Part shown: piece by piece, positions 1,621-45,395 of the stretch
How positions within the stretch are numbered: position 1 is the first letter of the stretch
Layout: each line of letters begins with the position of its first letter
Assembly: GCA_949361645.1 (NCBI GenBank)
Contig: OX442416.1
Span: forward strand, 9,169,129-9,233,128
From: Spongilla lacustris
Lineage: Eukaryota > Porifera > Demospongiae > Spongillida > Spongillidae
Reading direction: 5' to 3'
Length of the DNA stretch: 64,000 nt
Translations under genes and position numbers: made by a program
The notes under the pieces: model-generated
The model's database searches: none
The model's input: only the letters and a program-made list of their open reading frames with translations
Told to the model about the DNA's origin: nothing

Positions 1621-4600
1621 CTTAACAGCATATGGCACTCCACTCTCCAGGTCAGTCATCAGGTAACCATTAATTGATGCTGTGCTGTCCTCAATGCTCA
1701 TCTCTTCAATCACACTCTCCAGTTTCTTATCACGCTGTTATGGTAATAGTTGATGTGGTAATGCTTTATTGCACACTAATGACCACACCCACCTTGGCTA
1801 AGACAGCCAGGCATAACAGCTTGGACATGAACATATCATGGATCTTAACATTCCTACTATTGTTGAGGGATGCACGGTAGGTAAGCACACCATTATCATC
1901 CTGGTGAGGAAGAAATGTTAAACAGAGTGGGTGTTTTAGGGGAGTACATTCAGGAACCAAAGGAAGAGGGAGAGGGAGATTGTGGAAATGTTGGTAGTTA
2001 GAGAGAAATATAAAATAGTGTGGTAGCGTAAACATACATAATAAAAGAAGACGTCATTTCTAGTTCGATTGGTCGTATCATCAGCAAAGATGTGGAACAT
2101 AATTGGCTTCCCTGAACAGTACGAATTTTGTCTGGACTCCTTTGTGGGGACTCTCAAAGGGGGATTCCCCTATGGTGGAGTGAGGGTAAAGGGGAAGGGC
2201 TGAGAACATATATTACAACATCCTACAATTTTATATTGTGTGATGATAAGGAAACGGTCGTCACACGCACACACGCACATGTACACACATACTTGCTCTA
2301 GTCTCAGTGAAGTGGTCATGTTGTCATGGTCCACAAAGGTGACCCTTAGGTGAAGAGGTTGGGGGAGGGAAGGGTGGGCCCTACCAGCTTCATAATCGTC
2401 TTTTGGAAGGCTGTCTGGAGTGGAGGAGACATGTGGAGGTATGGAGAGGAGGTTTGCGGAGGCATGGAGGAGGTATGTGATGCAAGGAAACAAGAAGTAT
2501 AAAGATATAAAATGGTATGTACCTGCAAACTGGATAGCTAGTGTAACCCTCCAAGAAGTCCTTGAGGTGGGCTCTATATAGAAATCTGTAGTCTCCAACC
2601 ACTTCTGGCTGCACCCATCTGGCAATAGAACTTCCTTGGCTAAGAAGACCTGCTCACAGCGAATCCATGTAGTGCCATCTGCTTTGAATAAATCAAACAA
2701 ACCTGAACACAGATGCATGCATTAACACTGAGGTGTTCTTTGAACACCTCAGTGTATACATATATCATTTATATGGCAATCCCCCCACACCACTTACCAT
2801 TGCTAAGGTGCTCTACCAACACCACATACCATTGCTAAGGTGCTCTATCAACACCACATACATTTGCTAAGGTGCTCTACCAACACCACATACCATTGCT
2901 AAGGTGCTCTATCAACACCACATACATTTGCTAAGGTGCTCTCCCGACACCACATACCTTTGCTAAGGTACTCTCCAAACACCTCTCTTGTATCCATCCC
3001 AACACTTGACTGGTTGATCACACTTAGCACTGTTCTGAACAGGTTGTTCCACTTCCCTGTGAGTGGGTGCAATGGTTGCCATGGTCACCAAAAACAAGCA
3101 TTACCATTAGGCAATGTGTCCGTTGACCCCACAGTAGTATGTCCACGCTGTCTGAGCACCACTGGGCAGCTGTGTTATATCGAAGGACCATGTATCATAC
3201 AATATAACCATGGCAACCACGTTACACAGTGTAAGACAAACATAACCCCCCACACTGAAAATATACACAGCCACCCATACAAAGTTCATACATGAACAAA
3301 CACTTAGTCACACACACATAACAACTCACTCTTTAGTTCTGACACACTCATAGTCATTCTTTCTTTCTTTGGAATAATCTACTATCTCCAACTGAGGACC
3401 CTGTGGTTACCATGACACCAAGTGGGCATGAAGGGAAGAAGGATGAGAGGAAGGATCACCATGACAACAAGTCATAACATCACGAAGACTACCTCATAAG
3501 TGCTTTCAGGGAGGGGGTTGTTGATGGGGTGGAGGAAGGTGCGGTCACTGCTCTCAGGAAGGGTGTGGTCAAAAATGTCATTCTGTAAATAAATAATTCA
3601 TACGACTCACATAATGGCTGCACACACAAGCATACACACACAGATTACACACATGTACACTTACTGGAGCAGATAAACAGGTTACATGACCAGGTTTGAA
3701 GGCTCCTCCCTCAGATAAAAGCTTGAGCTCTTTGGTGAGAAGGTGATGAGGTGAGTAGGAAGAGGTGAGGGTGATACATATAGCTGTGTGATGAGAGAGG
3801 AGGTGAGGGTGATACATATAGCTGTGTGATGAGAGAGGAGGTGAGGGTGATACATATAGCTGTGTGATGAAAGAGGAGGTGAGGGTGATACATATAGCTG
3901 TGTGATGAAAGAGGAGGTGAGGGTGATACATATAGCTGTGTGATGAGGGAGGAGGTGAGGGTGATACATATAGCTGTGTCATGAGGGAGGAGGTGAGGGT
4001 GATACATATAGCTGTGTGATGAAAGAGGAGGTGAAGGTGATACATATAGCTGTGTGATGAGGGAGGAGGTGAGGGTGATACATATAGCTGTGTCATGAGG
4101 GAGGAGGTGAGGGTGATACATATAGCTGTGTGATGAGAGAGGAGGTGAGGGTGATACATATAGCTGTGTGATGAAAGAGGAGGTGAGGGTGATACATATA
4201 GCTGTGTGATGAGGGAGGAGGTGAGGGTGATACATATAGCTGTGTCATGAGGGAGGAGGTGAGGGTGATACATATAGCTGTGTGATGAGAGAGGAGGTGA
4301 GGGTGATACATATAGCTGTGTGATGAGAGAGGAGGTGAGGGTGATACATATAGCTGTGTCATGAGGGAGGAGGTGAGGGTGATACATATAGCTGTGTCAT
4401 GAGGGAGGAGGTGAGGGTGATACATATAGCTGTGTGATGAGGGAGGAGGTGAGGGTGATACATATAGCTGTGTGATGAGAGAGGAGGTGAGGGTGATACA
4501 TATAGCTGTGTCATGAGGGAGGAGGTGAGGGTGATACATATAGCTGTGTGATGAGAGAGGAGGTGAGGGTGATACATATAGCTGTGTGATGAGGGAGGAG

Positions 4601-6411
4601 GTGAGGGTGATACATATAGCTGTGTCATGAGGGAGGAGGTGAGGGTGATACATATAGCTGTGTCATGAGGGAGGAGGTGAGGGTGATACATATAGCTGTG
4701 TCATGAGGGAGGAGGTGAGGGTGATGCATATAGCTGTGTCATGAGGGAGGGGGTGAGGGTGATACATATAGCTGTGTCACGAGGGAGGAGGTGAGGGTGA
4801 TACATATAGCTGTGTCATGAGGGAGGAGGTGAGGGTGATGGAGCATTGAGAGCACACACACATGCTTGCACACATGGACACATTGTAGGCTTACATGTGG
4901 CTATGGAACCGACAGAATGAATCTCCACCTTGAGGCTCCACCCACTACTCCCTGTCTTATCCAGAGCGAGGTGAGACTGAGTAATGAGAATGTGTGGTAC
5001 AATGAAATGTATTCTGGTACTGCATTGGGGATGGGATGCAGGTTGAAATGTGTTGCCTCCATTATACCTTACCACCTCCTCCCTCTTCCCCAGCCCTTTC
5101 TTCGTATACCTCACACTGCATTAGCTCCTCCATAGTGTACTCCAGGAATGCAGTAGGCATGGTGGACTCCACCCCCAACAGGATGTAGAGAGAGTCATTC
5201 TGGGTCAACCCAACCTGACAGAAATGTAACCAATTGTAGCCAATTGTAACCATGTGACTATGTTTAACATACCTCACTCCACACACAGACATACCTCACT
5301 TCAGATACAACCATACCTTACTCCACATACAGCCATACCTCACTCCACATACAGCCATACCTCTCTCCACATACAGCCATACCTCACTCCACACACAGCC
5401 ATACCTCACTTCAGATACAACCATACCTCACTCCACACACAGCCATACCTCACTCCACACACAGCCATACCTCACTTCAGATACAACCATACCTTACTCC
5501 ACATACAGCCATACCTCACTCCACACACAGCCATACCTCACTTCAGATACAACCATACCTCACTCCACATACAGCCATACCTCACTCCACATACAGCCAT
5601 ACCTCACTCTACACACAGCCATACCTCACTCCACATACAGCCATACCTCACTTCAGCCATATCTCACTCCACACACAGCCATACCTCACTCCACACACAT
5701 GCAGCTATACCTCACTCCACATACAGCCATACCTCACTTCAGCCATATCTCACTCCACATACAGCGATATCTCACTCCACATACAGCGATACCTCACTCC
5801 ACATACAGCCATACCTCACTCCACATACAGCCATACCTCACTCCACATACAGCCATACCTCACTCCACATACAGCCATACCTCACTCCACATACAGCCAT
5901 ACCTCACTCCACATACAGCCATACCTCACTCCACACACATGCAGCCATACCTCACTCCACACACAGCCATACCTCACTCCACACACAGCCATACCTCACT
6001 CCACATACAGCCATACCTCACTCCACACACAGCCATACCTCACTCCACATACAGCCATACCTCACTCCACATACAGCCATATCTCACTCCACATCAGCCA
6101 TACCTCACTCCACATACAGCCATACCTCACTCCACATACAGCGATACCTCACTCCACATACAGCCATACCTCACTCCACATACAGCCATACATCACTCCA
6201 CATACAGCCATACCTCACTCCACACACTGCCATACCTCACTCCACATACAGCCATACCTCACTCCACACACAGCCATACCTCACTCCACATACAGCTTTT
6301 CACAAGAGGGTCCAGTAGGTCCATCTCCATCCAAATCTCCTTAGCATTATTGGACTACCAAAAATGTTGACATCATAATGACACATACATACAAACATAC
6401 GCACATGCACT

Positions 6412-6452
<41 letters not shown>

Positions 6453-9400
6453 ACACACACACGTATATATATATATACACACACCTGCTCCTTCATGCAT
6501 ATAAAGTAGTTCTCATAAGGGTAGTCTCCATGGTGCTTGCTGCGATGTCTTCCCTTCCTACACCCAGGGGGCAGGTCTGACCCACTGATCACCTTATTGC
6601 AGCACTGATAACAATAATTGCCATCGATACGTTGAGTGTGGTGCCTGCAGCTGTCTGCTGCATGTCATATAGATGTGCACCATTAAACAAACGCCCACAT
6701 GCACCAGCATGCCACTCAAATGGCTAATACTTAATAAAACATGAAGTTGAAAAATCACAATATACTATTATCACTCTTACACACTTTGGAATAGGTCGAG
6801 TGGGTGAATGGGGGGAAGGGCTGGGTAGGTACCTGCATTCAATGACTCTCTGTACTCCAACCCACACTGCACACATGTGAGCACTTGCTCTAGTCTTGCA
6901 TTCAATGAGCCCGTATCCAGATGGTCTTCTACAAATTGAACTACATGTAATGTGTGATGCATATATCAATGCATCCCAATGTACCTTTATAATGAGGGCA
7001 ATAGTTGGCACTAATTTTTTCGGCCATAACTGACTTGTCAATTTTCCTGAGGGCATCAATGAGTTTCTTCCAAGAGCATGACACATCTGACTCCAACCAG
7101 AACTGCATTAAGTCCCATCGGCAACCCGCTATCCGCCCTCCGTTATTAACATCAATCTCTTGCATCTTTGGGGCCATGACTCCCAACTGGGTCCCCAGTA
7201 ACTTCCAATCCACCATATCCTTTATAGCATTCATTATGTTTTTCAGTGTGAAGGTGGAATCTGAAGTGATACAGACCAGGTTTTCTCAATGGTCAGACGT
7301 CAAATAATTGTATCATCGTTATATCTATATTCGTTTTTTTAAAGTGTCAATACGTCGTTAGCCAAAAGACTATCCTACAATGCATAAATCATCATTCACT
7401 CACTCCTTTTACAGTAATCTCCGATAATCGTATGTTATTCTTTGCAAGGTGCTTGGAAAAATTACAGCTGCTTTGATTTCAAATAAAACTCTTTTTATTT
7501 ATTCCTACACCTTCGCATTAAGTGCTGCCGCGATGTGGTCTTTTGCCGATATCGTGACTATTAACAGGGGCGGATCCAGGATTTCAGAAAAGGGGGGGTT
7601 GTTAATGAATAATAATTAGGGGGAGGGTGCGGGAGGGGGCACCCCGCCCATCCAGCTAGGGGGTCTGGGGGAGCACTGTAAGCTCCCCCAGGGGGGTCTG
7701 GGGCGGAGCCCCAGAAGCCAACGCTTTTTTATTATATCATGCTCAAAACAGTACATAAAACTGCATGAAAATTGTATATGTATTTTTATGAATCAAATAA
7801 TTCAGCATTTTACGATTATAAGAATTGCTGGATTTATGCACTACAATCTTATGCTTGATGTGCTCGCAGATTTCATCCACACTCACAGGTACTTTTTCTT
7901 TATAGCGCACGCATGCATGGCAATCAAAGCCAAAAGATGTTGCATATGTTTTGATCCTTCTCATTGATTAACTAGCTACTTCGGCGATATTTAGCAAGCG
8001 CTCTCCATGACCATTTACATGCATACGGTGTCTCGGTCTCTCATAGGATCATTTTTCATGTATGTTTTTGGTATATATATATATATGGGATTTATTATGA
8101 TTACTACAGAAACAATAACACATTAAATAAAAATTATATTATATAGCCATAACGTTAACACTAACACTAAAAATAAACATAATCTAGAACCTAGACAACA
8201 TCGCCCTAGAGTTTGCCCTCACCAGGGAGATATTTAGCCGTGCATAAAGTTCAAAGGTTGCCATGGACTTTGGCACACAGCCATGGACAGCAAGGCGAGA
8301 TGCAAGTTTAGAAAAAGATTGCTGAGCCTCCTTGCCCCATGCCCCATAAGACTCCACCACAAGAGGGATGGAGACCCACCCACCCCAACTCTGCACACTT
8401 TGCATCATTGGCAGTGTGCTTCCTAAGCTCAGCCGCCTCTGATGCTGCACCTGCTCTTGCTCCCGCTGCAGACAAAACATTGGAGTTTAGCGGTGAGACA
8501 ACAGAGATGTCAAAGGCGGCTGGCTTTCCTCGATCCCAGTCCTGTACAAGAATATCGGCCGGTCTTGACTGGGAGTATGTTTAATCATATAGATTGATTG
8601 CTTACTTTTAAAAGTAAAAAAAAATACTTGTGTATGAGTTTTTATAAATGTCTTGTTTTGTTCTTTAGAGTGCAGTGTGATATTGTAGTATATTGTCGTA
8701 TTGGAGAAGACATCGCCTCATTACGTAGAGAGCGAGCGAAAGAAAATCGACTCCGCTATCACAGAACAAGCAATCGCTATAGCGATCGTTTTAAATCACG
8801 TAGAGTAGACTGTAAAACCTGACCGTAAATGTCAAGAAAACTTGTGTTCAAGACAAGACAAAATCGCGGGTCCGTTACACGTAACACGAGGCACGGGCAC
8901 GCTGAACTTCAGAAGCCATCTATTAGAATCGCCGTTACTTTTTGTTTAGCATCCGTACAGAAGCTATGTTGCTTGCTATTTTATATAAAGAATACAGTTG
9001 TAAAGACAAAACCGCAGGCGTCCCTTGCTTACGCAAGTAAGCACCACGCGCTTACGTAAGAATGCAATGATCTATGGTTAATAACTATACATGTGATTAT
9101 TAATAACAATTAATGATCAATGCCGGTCGATTTGGTTAGCCTTTTTGCCTTGCTAGTGTGGAAGCGCCTTTAGGAATCTTTCTCTTTTGTTCGGAATTTC
9201 CTATTAGTGAATGTTAATATTATTCATTATGGGTCTGAAAGGGGGGGTTGCAACCCCCCCAACCCCCCCCCCCCCCCCTGGATCCGCCACTGCTATACAT
9301 GTATATCGCGATATATAGCGATAAGAGTAAAATACGGCCATATTGTGTGTCGCGATATTGTAAGTATATTCATCGAGCAACAATTTTCATCGTTGAGGTG

Positions 9401-14470: not shown

Positions 14471-15465
14471 ACGCTGTACGGAGAAAATTAAAAATTTTAC
14501 GCGATAAGCACACACAATGCAGTGCATTATTGTTGTACATCAGTATCACCCTAGTGGGGTGGTAATTTTATCACAATGTATGCGTTAAATCAATATTAAT
14601 ACATATCTTCATGTGAAATTTCCTACACTTGGCCACACGTACACGCCATATTCTGTTGCACGTCACCATCTCTATCGTCCGCATTGAACTATAGCACTCT
14701 CCAGTTAATGCTTATTTCGATCCTCTAGTGTACGACACTCCCCTTCATTTTCTTTGGCCAGCCATGTTAGCTCATTTGCACCATCTTGTGTAAATTCGCT
14801 TCGCTACATTTCCGCTACTTCGTAGGAATTTCCATAATGGGTACATGCATGATGCTAGCACTAGTACTGTTCGGCGATTATAACCCAAACCTCGTTGTAT
14901 TAATCTACTTCCTAAACGACTGCTCGTGTCCTCCAAACTGTTTAGTCCATGAAGATGGGCGAAGATGATGTCCGCCCCATGATACGAAATAATTAAGTGG
15001 AACCACGACGAATTATGACTGGGAAGAACGCCGACCTTGAACATGCATTTTCATATCAGTTTTAATATGCATTTTATATGCATTTATATATATGAAAATG
15101 CGCAAAAATCACCAAGAGAATGTTCTAAACAATTTGATACCTTAAATGTGTACTGAATTGAATTTTGATTTATATACACCTAAGGGCGAAATAACACTGT
15201 TGTAGTAAGGGCACCATAACACTACGCTTATTTCTCGAATCCATACACGCAAAGAGAACGCCAAATACTTGTGCTTGATTCGTAAGAGATTGCGAATCAA
15301 ATTCACGAATGTACACGATCGACGTTATCACTCAACAAAAACGAGACAAGATCAAAAGTCATTATCATACTGCTTCTTTGGTGTGGCTGAAGACCACCTT
15401 CTGCAGGCCACATGTAGGCTAATATCATCTGACAACTGTATTTGATCGTGACAATATATATATAT

Positions 15466-16281
15466 GGGACAGTTTCCGCGAAAATGTCACCCTTTTATAA
15501 CATTATAATGTTATAAAAATGCTTCATGTTTGAATGAATATATCTTCCGAACGCTAAACGCTATCAACTTCTTATTTTCAACAGTTCATACCACACCAAT
15601 TCTCTACGAAGAATTAAATTTTGGAGTCTTGCATTTGCTCCACGCCAGTATTGCAACGTTCGATACCCAACAGGGTTCAAACCCGCCATAACTTTAGGTA
15701 GGAGTAATCAAATCGCTTCAAATTCGGTTTGTAGGTACAGAGGTCCTATACTTATCGATTTGTACTGTTCGTTAATTTATATGCCATCCGTTACGGAGAT
15801 ACAGTTGAACAAAGTACGTCCACTTTTCCCGCTCGATTCGCGCCAAAGATTTTGGCAAATCGCGTCCCGCTCAGTGTATGTGGAGGCGGTTGTTATATCA
15901 TTGGCGCGGATCGAGCGGGAAAAGTGGACGTACTTTGTTCAACTGTATCACCGTAACGGATTGCATAAAAATTAACGAACAGTACAAATCGGTGGGTATA
16001 AGACCTCTGTACCTACAAACCGAATTTGAAGCGATTTGATTACTCCTACCTAAAGTTATAGTGGGTTTGAACCTGGTCGAGTATCGAACGTTGCAATACT
16101 GGCGTGGAGCAAGTGCAAGACTTCAAAATGTAACTTGTCGTAGAGAAATGGTGTAGTATAAACTGCAGAAAATAGGAAGTCGATAGCGTTTAGCGTTCGG
16201 AAGATATAACGATTCAAACATGAAGCATTTTTATAACATTATAATGTTATAGAAGGGTGACATTTTTGCGGAAACTGTCCC
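15466..16281. mobile_element. Foldback element, GGGACAGTTTCC ends (copy 1)
   Basis: The element is almost entirely self-complementary: the left half from GGGACAGTTTCCGCG mirrors the right half ending CGGAAACTGTCCC, with the turn near 15870. TATA-rich flanks on both sides make the duplication (probably TA) ambiguous. The ORF inside reads through the inverted repeat and is not a gene. It belongs to the same family as 26781-27573 and 49769-50522. Confidence 0.85.
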
Positions 16282-16561
16282 ATATAATTATAATACTTTT
16301 TGATAATATATATATTTATACCTTTTGGTGTATGGGACTAGACAAACAAGAGCACAACGAACACAACAGATGGTAACAGGTAACAGGTAACCTTATAAGC
16401 TTGTGGCATTGTGGTAAGTAAATGTTTTTCGATTGGTCAGTTTGTGAGTTTAATAGTTTGGCAGTGATCAGGGTATTGGCTTGTTGCCAGTATGAACATC
16501 TTATATCTTGTATTGCAATTTTTTAAATTCCAATTTCAGACCTGCCTCCTAGCAGGATCAT

Positions 16562-17396
16562 ACCTCGCCTCCACATACAGCCATACCTTACTCCACATAC
16601 AGCCATACCTCACTCCACATACAGCCATACCTCACTCCACACACAGCCATACCTCACTCCACATACAGCCATACCTCACTCCACATACAGCCATACCTCA
16701 CCTCCACATACAGCCACACCTCACTCCACACACAGCCATACCTCACTCCACACACACCCATACCTCACTCCACACACAGCCATACCTCACTCCACATACA
16801 GCCATACCTCACTCCACATACAGCCATACCTCACTCCACATACAGCCATACCTCACTCCACATACAGCCATACCTCACTCCACATACAGCCATACCTCAC
16901 TCCACACACAGCCATACCTCACTCCACATACAGCCACACCTCACTCCACATACAGCCATACCTCACTCCACATACAGCCATACCTCACCTCCACATACAG
17001 CCACACCTCACTCCACATACAGCCATACCTCACTCCACATACAGCCATATCTCACTCCACACACAGCCATACCTCACTCCACATACAGCCATACCTCACT
17101 CCACATACAGCCATACCTCACTCCACACACAGCCATACCTCACTCCACACACAGCCATACCTCACTCCACACACAGCCATACCTCACTCCACATACAGCC
17201 ATACCTCACTCCACACACAGCCATACCTCACTCCACATACAGCCATACCTCACTCCACATACAGCCATACCTCACTCCACATACAGCCATACCTCACTCC
17301 ACACACAGCCATACCTCACTCCACATACAGCCATACCTCACTCCACACACAGCCATACCTCACTCCACATACAGCCATACCTCACTCCACATACAG
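16562..17396. repeat. 22-bp minisatellite after gene B exon 3 (about 38 copies)
   Basis: It has the same unit and the same position as the array at 5262-6297, directly behind the paralogous 75-nt exon at 17455-17381. A few units are shortened or have CACC instead of CAC (for example near 16700 and 16985). The array therefore either existed before the duplication or grew twice from the same junction. Confidence 0.92.
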
Positions 17397-18343
17397 CTCT
17401 TCACAAGAGGGTCCAGTAGGTCCATCTCCATCCAAATCTCCTTAGCATTATTGGACTGCCAAAAATGATGACATCATAATGACACACATGCACCTACACA
17501 AGACACACACTTGCACACCCACCCACAAACATTGGATGTACACACACACACGTACACACACACACCTGCTCCTCCATGTACTTAAAGTAGTTCTCATAAA
17601 GGTAGTCTCCATGGTGCTTGCTGTGATGCCTTCCCTTCCTACACCTAGGGGGCAGGTCTGACCCTCTGTACCCCTTCTTACAGCACTTGTAGTAAGTGGG
17701 GTAGTCCTGGAACCTCCCACTGTGGTACCTGCAGCCGTCTGCAGTGACGTCAAATACATGTTCACCTTAACCCATGCACCAGCATACCACCCTGATCGCT
17801 TACATTGTCACATATCAACATCTATCAAGGTTACATATTATCCATAGTTATTTATATACCTTCCGTTGTCACGTGCATGTAGACCTACACACTAACTGAA
17901 AACAACCTAGCTATTCAAGAAGAGATATTAGCTGTCAATATACAAGTATACAAGAAAACGTTGCACTCCTAGGGCTACATGTAGCAGTTAAAAATATCAC
18001 CACCGCGGCGGAGGGAAATAGGTAGCTAGGTATATACCGAGCAAGTGGTTAGGTACGAGCATGCAACTATAGCCTATATATATATTAAAGCTACTTAGTG
18101 AAGTTAGTCTTAGCATAGATCTTACGTACCTGTATTAGACGACTCCCCATACTCCAATCCACACTGTACGCACGTGAGCACTGGCTCCGGTGGTGCGTTC
18201 AATGAACTGGCTTCGAGCTGGTCCTCCAGTTTCTTGCGTCGTGTAGGGACCAACCGAAAGGTATCATATGCTAGCTTCCTCATCTCGCTGCGCAGCTCCT
18301 GTACCGCGCTTTTCAGCTGCAAGAAATCCTCTCTCGACACCAT
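17381..18343 (-). CDS. Gene B: 5' paralogue of gene A lacking the Death exon
   Basis: There are three exons with matching phases: 18343-18130 (ATG, MVSREDFLQLKSAVQELRSE, then LTCVQCGLEYGESSNTG), 17738-17566 (DGCRYHSGRFQDYPTYYKCC, then PPRCRKGRHHSKHHGDYLYE) and 17455-17381 (SNNAKEIWMEMDLLDPLVKS). They match gene A exons 1/4, 5 and 6, including a 75-nt exon of near-identical sequence. The zinc ligands are better kept than in gene A. After the third exon comes a 22-bp splice-donor array, and then no further homologous exon before the foldback element at 16281. Gene B is therefore either a truncated copy or an alternative 5' cassette: exon 3 ends in phase 0, which would fit gene A exon 7 at 5214. 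The N-terminal 50 residues are rich in K/E/L heptad-like spacing, suggesting a short coiled coil. Confidence 0.65.
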
Positions 18344-18536: not shown

Positions 18537-18990
18537 ATGGGGGGTGATCACTGCCATAATTCGACACGCGCTCGCTTTTCGTATTCGGGTCGCGCCATCT
18601 CGTATTCGGGTCGTGCCGTCTCGTATTCGGGTCGTGCCATCTCGTATTCGGGTCGTGCCGTCTCGTATTTGGGTGGTGCCATCTCGTTACAGCTCCGTAA
18701 CAGTACGTTATGTAAGAACGTTCTGTTACAGCTCCGTTACAGACAAGATATCTCTTAGCCGTTTATTATTGTCGTGATTGCATAATACCATTGCCATCGT
18801 TCCGTACCAGGCTACGGTTTGGATCCAGGGAATTTGTTTTGCTTGTATAGTATATATTAAAATCAGCCGAGCGCCGGCAGTACGCTCAGCTTCCTTCCTC
18901 TCCGTGCATCTTCTAATTGGACAGTACGTAGGAACGGTACGTTCTGACCATGCAAGTCACATGCATATGACGACGATCTGTATAACTCAG
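18537..18990 (+). repeat. Third copy of the palindrome-centre repeat
   Basis: It matches 40087-40510: GGGGGGTGATCACTGCCATA, four or five 21-bp units (TCGTATTCGGGTCGTGCCA/G), CGTTACAGACA, CTTAGCCGTTTAT, ATTGCATAATACCATTGCCA and GTACGTTCTGACCAT. It begins about 190 bp upstream of the gene B start codon, in the place where a promoter would be. Confidence 0.75.
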
Positions 18991-31609: not shown

Positions 31610-31835
31610 TGTCGGACCGCTTACTCCGTTGGGGGACAATTTACTCTAGAGTAAAATGTCCGGTCAGGACAATTTACTCCGGAGTAAAACGTCCGGTTTG
31701 GACAATTTACTCCGGAGTAAAACATCCGGTTAGGACAATTTACTCCGGAGTAAAACGTCCGGTTAGGACAATTTACTCCGGAGTAAAATGTCCGGTTAGG
31801 ACAAGTTACTCCGACGGACACTTTCCTCCGTGACA
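31610..31835. repeat. 33-bp tandem repeat with internal palindrome (left arm, about 5 copies)
   Basis: The unit is GTCCGGTTAGGACAATTTAC plus TCCGGAGTAAAAC. TTACTCCGGAGTAA inside it is self-complementary, so each unit can form its own hairpin. The partner in the right arm (45240-45390) has about 3 copies. Being 33 bp, it gives an in-frame 11-residue repeat, but no gene context supports coding. Confidence 0.8.
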
Positions 31836-39783: not shown

Positions 39784-40337
39784 ACGGCTAAGAGGTATCA
39801 TGTCTGTAACGGAGCTGTAACAGAACGTTCTTACCTATCGTACTGTTACGGAGCTGAAACGAGATGGCACCGCCCAAATACGAAATGGCACCACCCAAAT
39901 ACGAGACGGCACGACCCGAATACGAGACGGCACGACCCGAATACGAGACGGCACGACCCGAATACGAGATGGCGCGACCCGAATACGAGATGGCGCGACC
40001 CGAATACGAAAAGCGAGCGCGTGTCGAATTATGGCAGTGATCACCCCCCATATGGAATCAGGATCCACACTGACAGACATCATCTATGGGGGGTGATCAC
40101 TGCCATAATTCGACACGCGCTCGCTTTTCGTATTCGGGTCGCGCCATCTCGTATTCGGGTCGCGCCGTCTCGTATTCGGGTCGTGCCATCTCGTATTCGG
40201 GTCGTGCCGTCTCGTATTTGGGTGGTGCCATTTCGTATTTGGGTGGTGCCATCTCGTTACAGCTCCGTAACAGTACGTTGGGTAAGAACGTTCTGTTACA
40301 GCTCCGTTACAGACATGATACCTCTTAGCCGTTTATT
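39784..40337. repeat. Nested inverted repeat at the palindrome centre, with 21-bp units
   Basis: The arms 39784-40050 and 40087-40337 each hold 5-7 tandem units of TCGTATTCGGGTCGTGCCA/G plus TC, bounded by GAACGTTCT and CTAAGAGGTATCATGTCTGT. On the coding side the unit is a 7-residue repeat (SYSGRAI/V), but this is probably incidental. Unit number differs between the arms (7 versus 6 by my count). Confidence 0.88.
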
Positions 40338-45235: not shown

Positions 45236-45395
45236 GAAAGTGTCCGTCGGAGTAACTTGTCCTAACCGGACATTTTACGCCGGAGTAAATTGTCCTAACC
45301 GGACGTTTTACTCCGGAGTAAATTGTCCTAACCGGACATTTTACTCTAGAGTAAATTGTCCCCCAACGGAGTAAGTGGTCCGACATTGTGCCGTA
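45236..45395. repeat. 33-bp tandem repeat (right arm, about 3 copies)
   Basis: This is the mirror of 31610-31835 with two units fewer. One unit has GCCGG for TCCGG. Confidence 0.75.

Follow-up and report, generated by a model that had tools for sequence, protein, structure and literature searches.

Minisatellites at exon-intron borders have been described in amphioxus as "mirages," in Adh3, the globin genes BflGb6 and BflGb9, TnC, and PGBD5 (PMC3087553, PMC3902484). According to the available text of these papers, mirages are tandem repeats that span 5' and 3' exon-intron borders and carry splice signals in many copies, with units of 10-72 bp in Adh3 (PMC3087553, PMC3902484), and splicing of the genes was found to be regular by RT-PCR (PMC3087553). 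In humans, internal tandem repeats with ~30-bp units have been reported at the exon-intron boundaries of genes that were duplicated recently, in segmental duplications, as far as the accessible part of the source describes them (PMC2812944). The Rogers model, as given in the portion of text available, explains intron gain by tandem duplication of AGGT, with both splice sites derived from the duplicate (PMC4974935). Border-spanning minisatellites have not been reported from sponges in the literature searched; a sponge intron with minisatellite repeats has been described, and splice sites are not mentioned in the available text of that study (PMC2267160).

We analyzed a window, that is, the whole stretch of 64,000 nucleotides of Spongilla lacustris DNA at C2:9169129-9233128 (assembly, 248.6 Mb in 51 contigs). 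Gene A lies on the minus strand and was modeled from its sequence with 11 exons, GT-AG introns, and a single open frame of 384 codons. Arrays were located by TRF, and their overlap with exons was taken from the gene model and from one-period self-comparison. The modeled exons and the three arrays, in the order of transcription, are as follows.

6833-6928, minus strand: exon Ea, from the model; 5' limit placed at a TAG and less certain
6485-6657, minus strand: exon Eb, from the model
6280-6354, minus strand: exon Ec, from the model and homologues; ends ...SCMWSE
5268-6296, minus strand: 22-bp minisatellite, from TRF; 47.0 copies, filling a 1065-bp intron except for 53 bp
5110-5214, minus strand: exon Ed, from the model and homologues; VGLTQNDSLYILLG...
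4895-4976, minus strand: exon Ee, from the model and homologues; SHLALDKTGSSGW...SIAT
3758-4839, minus strand: 38-bp minisatellite, from TRF; 28.5 copies, filling a 1111-bp intron except for 55 bp
3665-3783, minus strand: exon Ef, from the model and homologues; begins (S)ICITLTSSYSPHH within the last 38-bp copy
3493-3582, minus strand: exon Eg, from the model
3330-3400, minus strand: exon Eh, from the model
3105-3169, minus strand: exon Ei, from the model
2958-3056, minus strand: exon Ej, from the model and homologues; ...VFGEYLSKG, its end within the first 32-bp copy
2787-2983, minus strand: 32-bp minisatellite, from TRF; 6.2 copies, filling a 255-bp intron except for 84 bp
2523-2702, minus strand: exon Ek, from the model; last modeled exon, the gene extending past it

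The introns of gene A measure 175, 130, 1065, 133, 1111, 82, 92, 160, 48, and 255 bp. Those that hold arrays are the 1065-, 1111-, and 255-bp introns, with non-array remnants of 53, 55, and 84 bp, and those without arrays are 48-175 bp long. The 22-bp unit consists of the last 17 nt of exon Ec, GCTGTATGTGGAGTGAG, followed by GTATG; the array begins within the exon, and its exonic part encodes the end of SCMWSE (SCLWSE in the homologues). The 32-bp unit consists of the last 26 nt of exon Ej followed by GTATGT, and in self-comparison GGTGT was found in the exon and again in the intron, 32 bp apart. In the 38-bp array, the unit comprises 12 intron nt that end in the acceptor AG, followed by 26 nt from the start of exon Ef. 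The acceptor CACACAG and these 26 exon nt are provided by the last copy of the array, and the exon residues read ICITLTSS compared with VTISMTSS in the homologues. The first-pass annotation had proposed that three introns of gene A are filled by splice-junction minisatellites, and TRF, the gene model, and the homologues bear this out; self-comparison likewise confirmed its description of the 22- and 32-bp units as exon end plus donor and of the 38-bp unit as acceptor AG plus first exon bases. Its estimate of ~28 acceptors was exact (28), and its figure of ~46 donors in the 22-bp array was too high, the count being 42 AGGT, 39 of them AGGTATG. The six donors that it gave for the 32-bp array are present as GT, and only four of the six are preceded by G. 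In the gene model, one end only of each array-bearing intron is array-derived: the opposite splice site, an acceptor in the introns with the 22- and 32-bp arrays and a donor in that with the 38-bp array, falls outside the array.

Of 5.8 billion proteins searched, four matched the gene A protein at E <= 0.001, one named as Ephydatia muelleri and three with Em-prefixed gene names, which we take to be E. muelleri as well. At the three array borders, the homologues show SCLWSE-VGLTQ, SIATS-VTISMTSSFSPHH, and EHLSK; they back the predicted exon sequence at all three borders, not the intron positions. No Pfam family was found at E 0.1 for the 384-aa gene A model or for P0001-P0004; P0001 carries PF26782 in the protein-search listing despite this null result. 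A Death-domain match (PF00531, E 3.5e-5) was located at 7005-7285 on the minus strand, upstream of exon Ea. Downstream of gene A, a 36-bp array (repeat STSDEGPSTSYV; L058 2782-3057, C2:9166910-9167185) has one reading frame open along most of the repeat tract and is perhaps coding.

The arrays of gene A share the anatomy of mirages. The units span the exon-intron boundary, with 17, 26, and 26 exon nt, and two donor arrays and one acceptor array carry the splice signals of 5' and 3' borders in their copies. The differences are the sponge host, the presence of three arrays in one gene, and the number of copies, which reaches 28 and 47 in gene A compared with 6 and 3 in the BflGb6 haplotypes described in the available text (PMC3087553, PMC3902484). 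Mirages are unstable in length, between haplotypes or somatically, whereas the present comparison is within one assembly, in which the 22-bp arrays of gene A and its paralogue B have 47 and 38 copies. Also, regular mRNA splicing is reported to be undisturbed by mirages, whereas for gene A the use of the exon-attached sites is a prediction from frame analysis alone. The kind of array is already known from amphioxus, and the suggestion of the first-pass annotation that it was a candidate for something undescribed is superseded by the published mirages; the sponge host is new as far as the literature was searched.

Most probably, the gene A arrays are mirage-type minisatellites, in which a tandem duplication that spanned a border by chance was expanded and was tolerated by splicing. 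By the mechanism of duplication and expansion that we infer, a short tandem duplication would have chanced to span an exon-intron border, and the duplicated unit would then have expanded by slippage or unequal exchange. Such a duplication would be tolerated because the exon-attached copy keeps a whole splice site, and the extra copies would fall into the intron and be removed. A 22-, 32-, or 38-bp duplication lying wholly within an exon would cause a frameshift, and the very short introns of gene A would make border overlap likely. We favor this explanation because the units equal exon edge plus splice site, because the exons form one open GT-AG frame with homologue support, and because the introns are short. 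That the duplications were placed by chance is supported by the paired GGTGT of the 32-bp array, by the arrays of paralogue loci and random stretches described below, and by the amphioxus counterpart, and is opposed by the mostly exonic units, the array density in the gene A span, and an excess of donor-like motifs.

The window contains a second copy of the 22-bp array, in paralogue B, with the following features.

17381-18343, minus strand: exon-like matches of paralogue B (18343 to ~18134, 17751-17566, and 17455-17381)
16559-17397, minus strand: 22-bp array of paralogue B, from TRF; 38.0 copies, bordered at its end by unrelated DNA

Paralogue B has its 5' exons and its 22-bp array in common with A, and tblastn detected no later exon of B in the window. 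A 59-base run of the 22-bp unit gave 57 genome-wide matches with three mismatches or fewer, all within the A and B arrays. Exon Ec of A (6280-6354) and that of B (17381-17455) differ at 1 of 75 positions, whereas divergence in exon Eb is clearly greater. Compared with the array of B, that of A shows a mean of 1.28 differences in its exon-proximal half and 2.72 in its distal half. Together, these results suggest exchange between A and B, and the near-identical Ec beside the shared array is likely a conversion tract. Since the 22-bp arrays of A and B are one and the same by descent or exchange, there were three events, not four; B does not represent a second origin, and its array does not lend the independent support that the first-pass annotation drew from it. 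The end of paralogue B is adjoined by a foldback element (15455-16292) with two 396-nt arms, 91% complementary and 46 nt apart.

The first-pass annotation had also read the arrays as a sign of a mechanism that targets exon-intron borders. Such a mechanism, for example breakage or slippage linked to the splice sites of transcribed DNA, would found tandem repeats preferentially on exon edges (mostly exon plus the first 5-6 intron bases); the selected exon-attached copy would serve as master of the array, and introns would grow from their own splice sites. We regard this as improbable. It would fit the observation that all three arrays in the gene model straddle a border and that two of the units stop at donor positions +5 and +6. 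However, in a chance model in which arrays were collapsed and a random unit touching a gene A intron was placed uniformly, border straddling occurred with P 0.32 (22 bp), 0.51 (38 bp), and 0.45 (32 bp), and straddling by all three with P 0.073; with introns as tiny as those of gene A, chance straddling is thus plausible. The probability for all three was 0.045 with at least 5 exon nt, 0.021 with at least 10 exon nt, and 0.0009 at the observed, mostly exonic shares of the units (17/22, 26/32, and 26/38, with 24 used for the 38-bp unit), the last being a post hoc cut chosen after seeing the data.

Arrays at paralogue loci argue against a border bias. Thirteen arrays were counted in seven loci; eight rows without mapped exons were dropped, and the other five were used as four events, namely L055 2640-2698; a single event for the 19-bp arrays in L055 and L056; L054 1701-1764, to which just one exon, the nearer, is close; and L057 142-253. 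None of these four independent mapped arrays straddles a border, with L057 being ambiguous: it occupies the interval between two exon remnants read by eye, reaching to within a few bases of both, and its unit lacks both an AG acceptor and a GT donor. A similar array of 2.4 copies was found in a second copy after this count. The observation that units equal exon edge plus splice site therefore stands, but a border-targeting mechanism in this genome is unproven, given random straddling of 32-51% and 0/4 at the paralogue loci.

The density of arrays was assessed in eight random 10-kb stretches (5 kb of L060 masked; period 10-100, at least 2.8 copies), which contained 16 arrays in 75 kb, some of them CA-rich; exons are unmapped there, so this sample gives density only. 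By the same density filter, the 4.4-kb span of gene A holds four arrays, one of which is a CA repeat, compared with 0.94 expected (P 0.016; P 0.07 for three arrays), and one of the eight random stretches (L062) has four arrays within 4.2 kb. The genome is minisatellite-rich. Other arrays encountered were a 19-bp array of 76 copies that spans 1.5 kb in one of the random stretches, on C1 (L062 7755-9242), and, near a paralogue, a 27-bp array of ~128 copies and 3.5 kb (L054 5767 into L067; C1:6406767-6410269). The 21-bp unit TCGTATTCGGGTCGTGCCATC or its complement is arrayed at 18579-18687, 39859-40009, 40128-40257, and L021 2439-2568, as a dispersed satellite at unrelated places. The 33-bp arrays at 31634-31813 and 45248-45361 are related to each other, and their unit is in part self-complementary.

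Donor-like motifs were present in 7/43 array units compared with 0/43 reversed units (Fisher P 0.012), a count in which A and B, from which the question arose, are included. Outside the window, the proportions were 4/29 and 0/29 (Fisher P 0.11), which leans toward border founding. By sample, motifs were found in 2/16 units of random stretches, 2/13 of paralogue loci, and 3/14 of the window, with none among the reversed units of each; one of the three in the window belongs to the 38-bp unit and is antisense to the gene. The motif array in L054 lies 16 bp beyond an aligned exon end, that in L062 lies beside two inverted ORF copies rather than a mapped exon, and no exon is mapped at the other two, in L064 and L057. 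A master copy at the exon was also considered from the polarity of the arrays, as cleaner exon-proximal copies. With the last partial unit omitted each time, Spearman coefficients were not significant (0.24, 0.10, and 0.38; P 0.11, 0.57, and 0.06; n = 46, 36, and 27 units), and mean pairwise differences in the proximal and distal halves were 1.51 and 4.02 in A, 0.84 and 1.26 in B, and 1.54 and 1.29 in the 38-bp array. Exon-proximal purity is not a general pattern.

Furthermore, we determined the consequences for the reading frame of using other copies. In the 22-bp array, 38 further donors were tested; 11 preserve frame length, and all 38 lead into a stop. None of the five further donors of the 32-bp array leaves the frame open. 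In the 38-bp array, 6 of the 28 acceptors do so, those 0, 3, 6, 9, 12, and 15 copies upstream (the exon-attached one included), and their use would add 38 residues per three copies. Since all further donors tested break the frame, a useful product needs the exon-attached donors, and the exon-attached splice sites would be those that the cell uses. Even less probable than border founding, in our estimate, is that the arrays are a splicing device, with alternative acceptors lengthening the protein or donors tuning expression via aberrant transcripts. The six open acceptors speak for it, but none of the further donors tested does, the homologues are without an insertion at SIATS-VTISM, and amphioxus mirages, in the text available, are reported not to disturb regular splicing.

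Several donor copies are reportedly used in transcripts of the human interferon-induced gene 6-16 (G1P3/IFI6), for which a 1995 paper is said to have described a minisatellite with multiple splice donors for one exon. A minisatellite in gene A likewise supplies many donors to one exon but, unlike in 6-16, all further donors tested break the frame (0/38 and 0/5 open). Human internal tandem repeats are tied, in the part of the source available, to novel introns and alternative splicing (PMC2812944), whereas in gene A the other end of each array-bearing intron is not array-derived. As in the available description of the Rogers model, the tandem duplication in gene A carries AGGT (PMC4974935). Intron gain of this type was considered and set aside because one end only of each intron is array-derived, whereas in the model both splice sites come from the duplicated exonic segment.

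Least probable of all is that the true exon borders are at other positions, with the arrays being ordinary intronic minisatellites, or that the locus is a pseudogene or misassembled: paralogue B has no later exons after its array and assemblies can get array lengths wrong, but the 11 GT-AG exons of gene A form one open frame of 384 codons and homologues match the residues encoded in the array-derived exon edges.

These results carry border-spanning minisatellites from amphioxus to a sponge. Gene A is a natural test of how the spliceosome chooses one site among 28 to 47 near-identical neighbors, and a border bias, if true, would tie splicing to intron growth.
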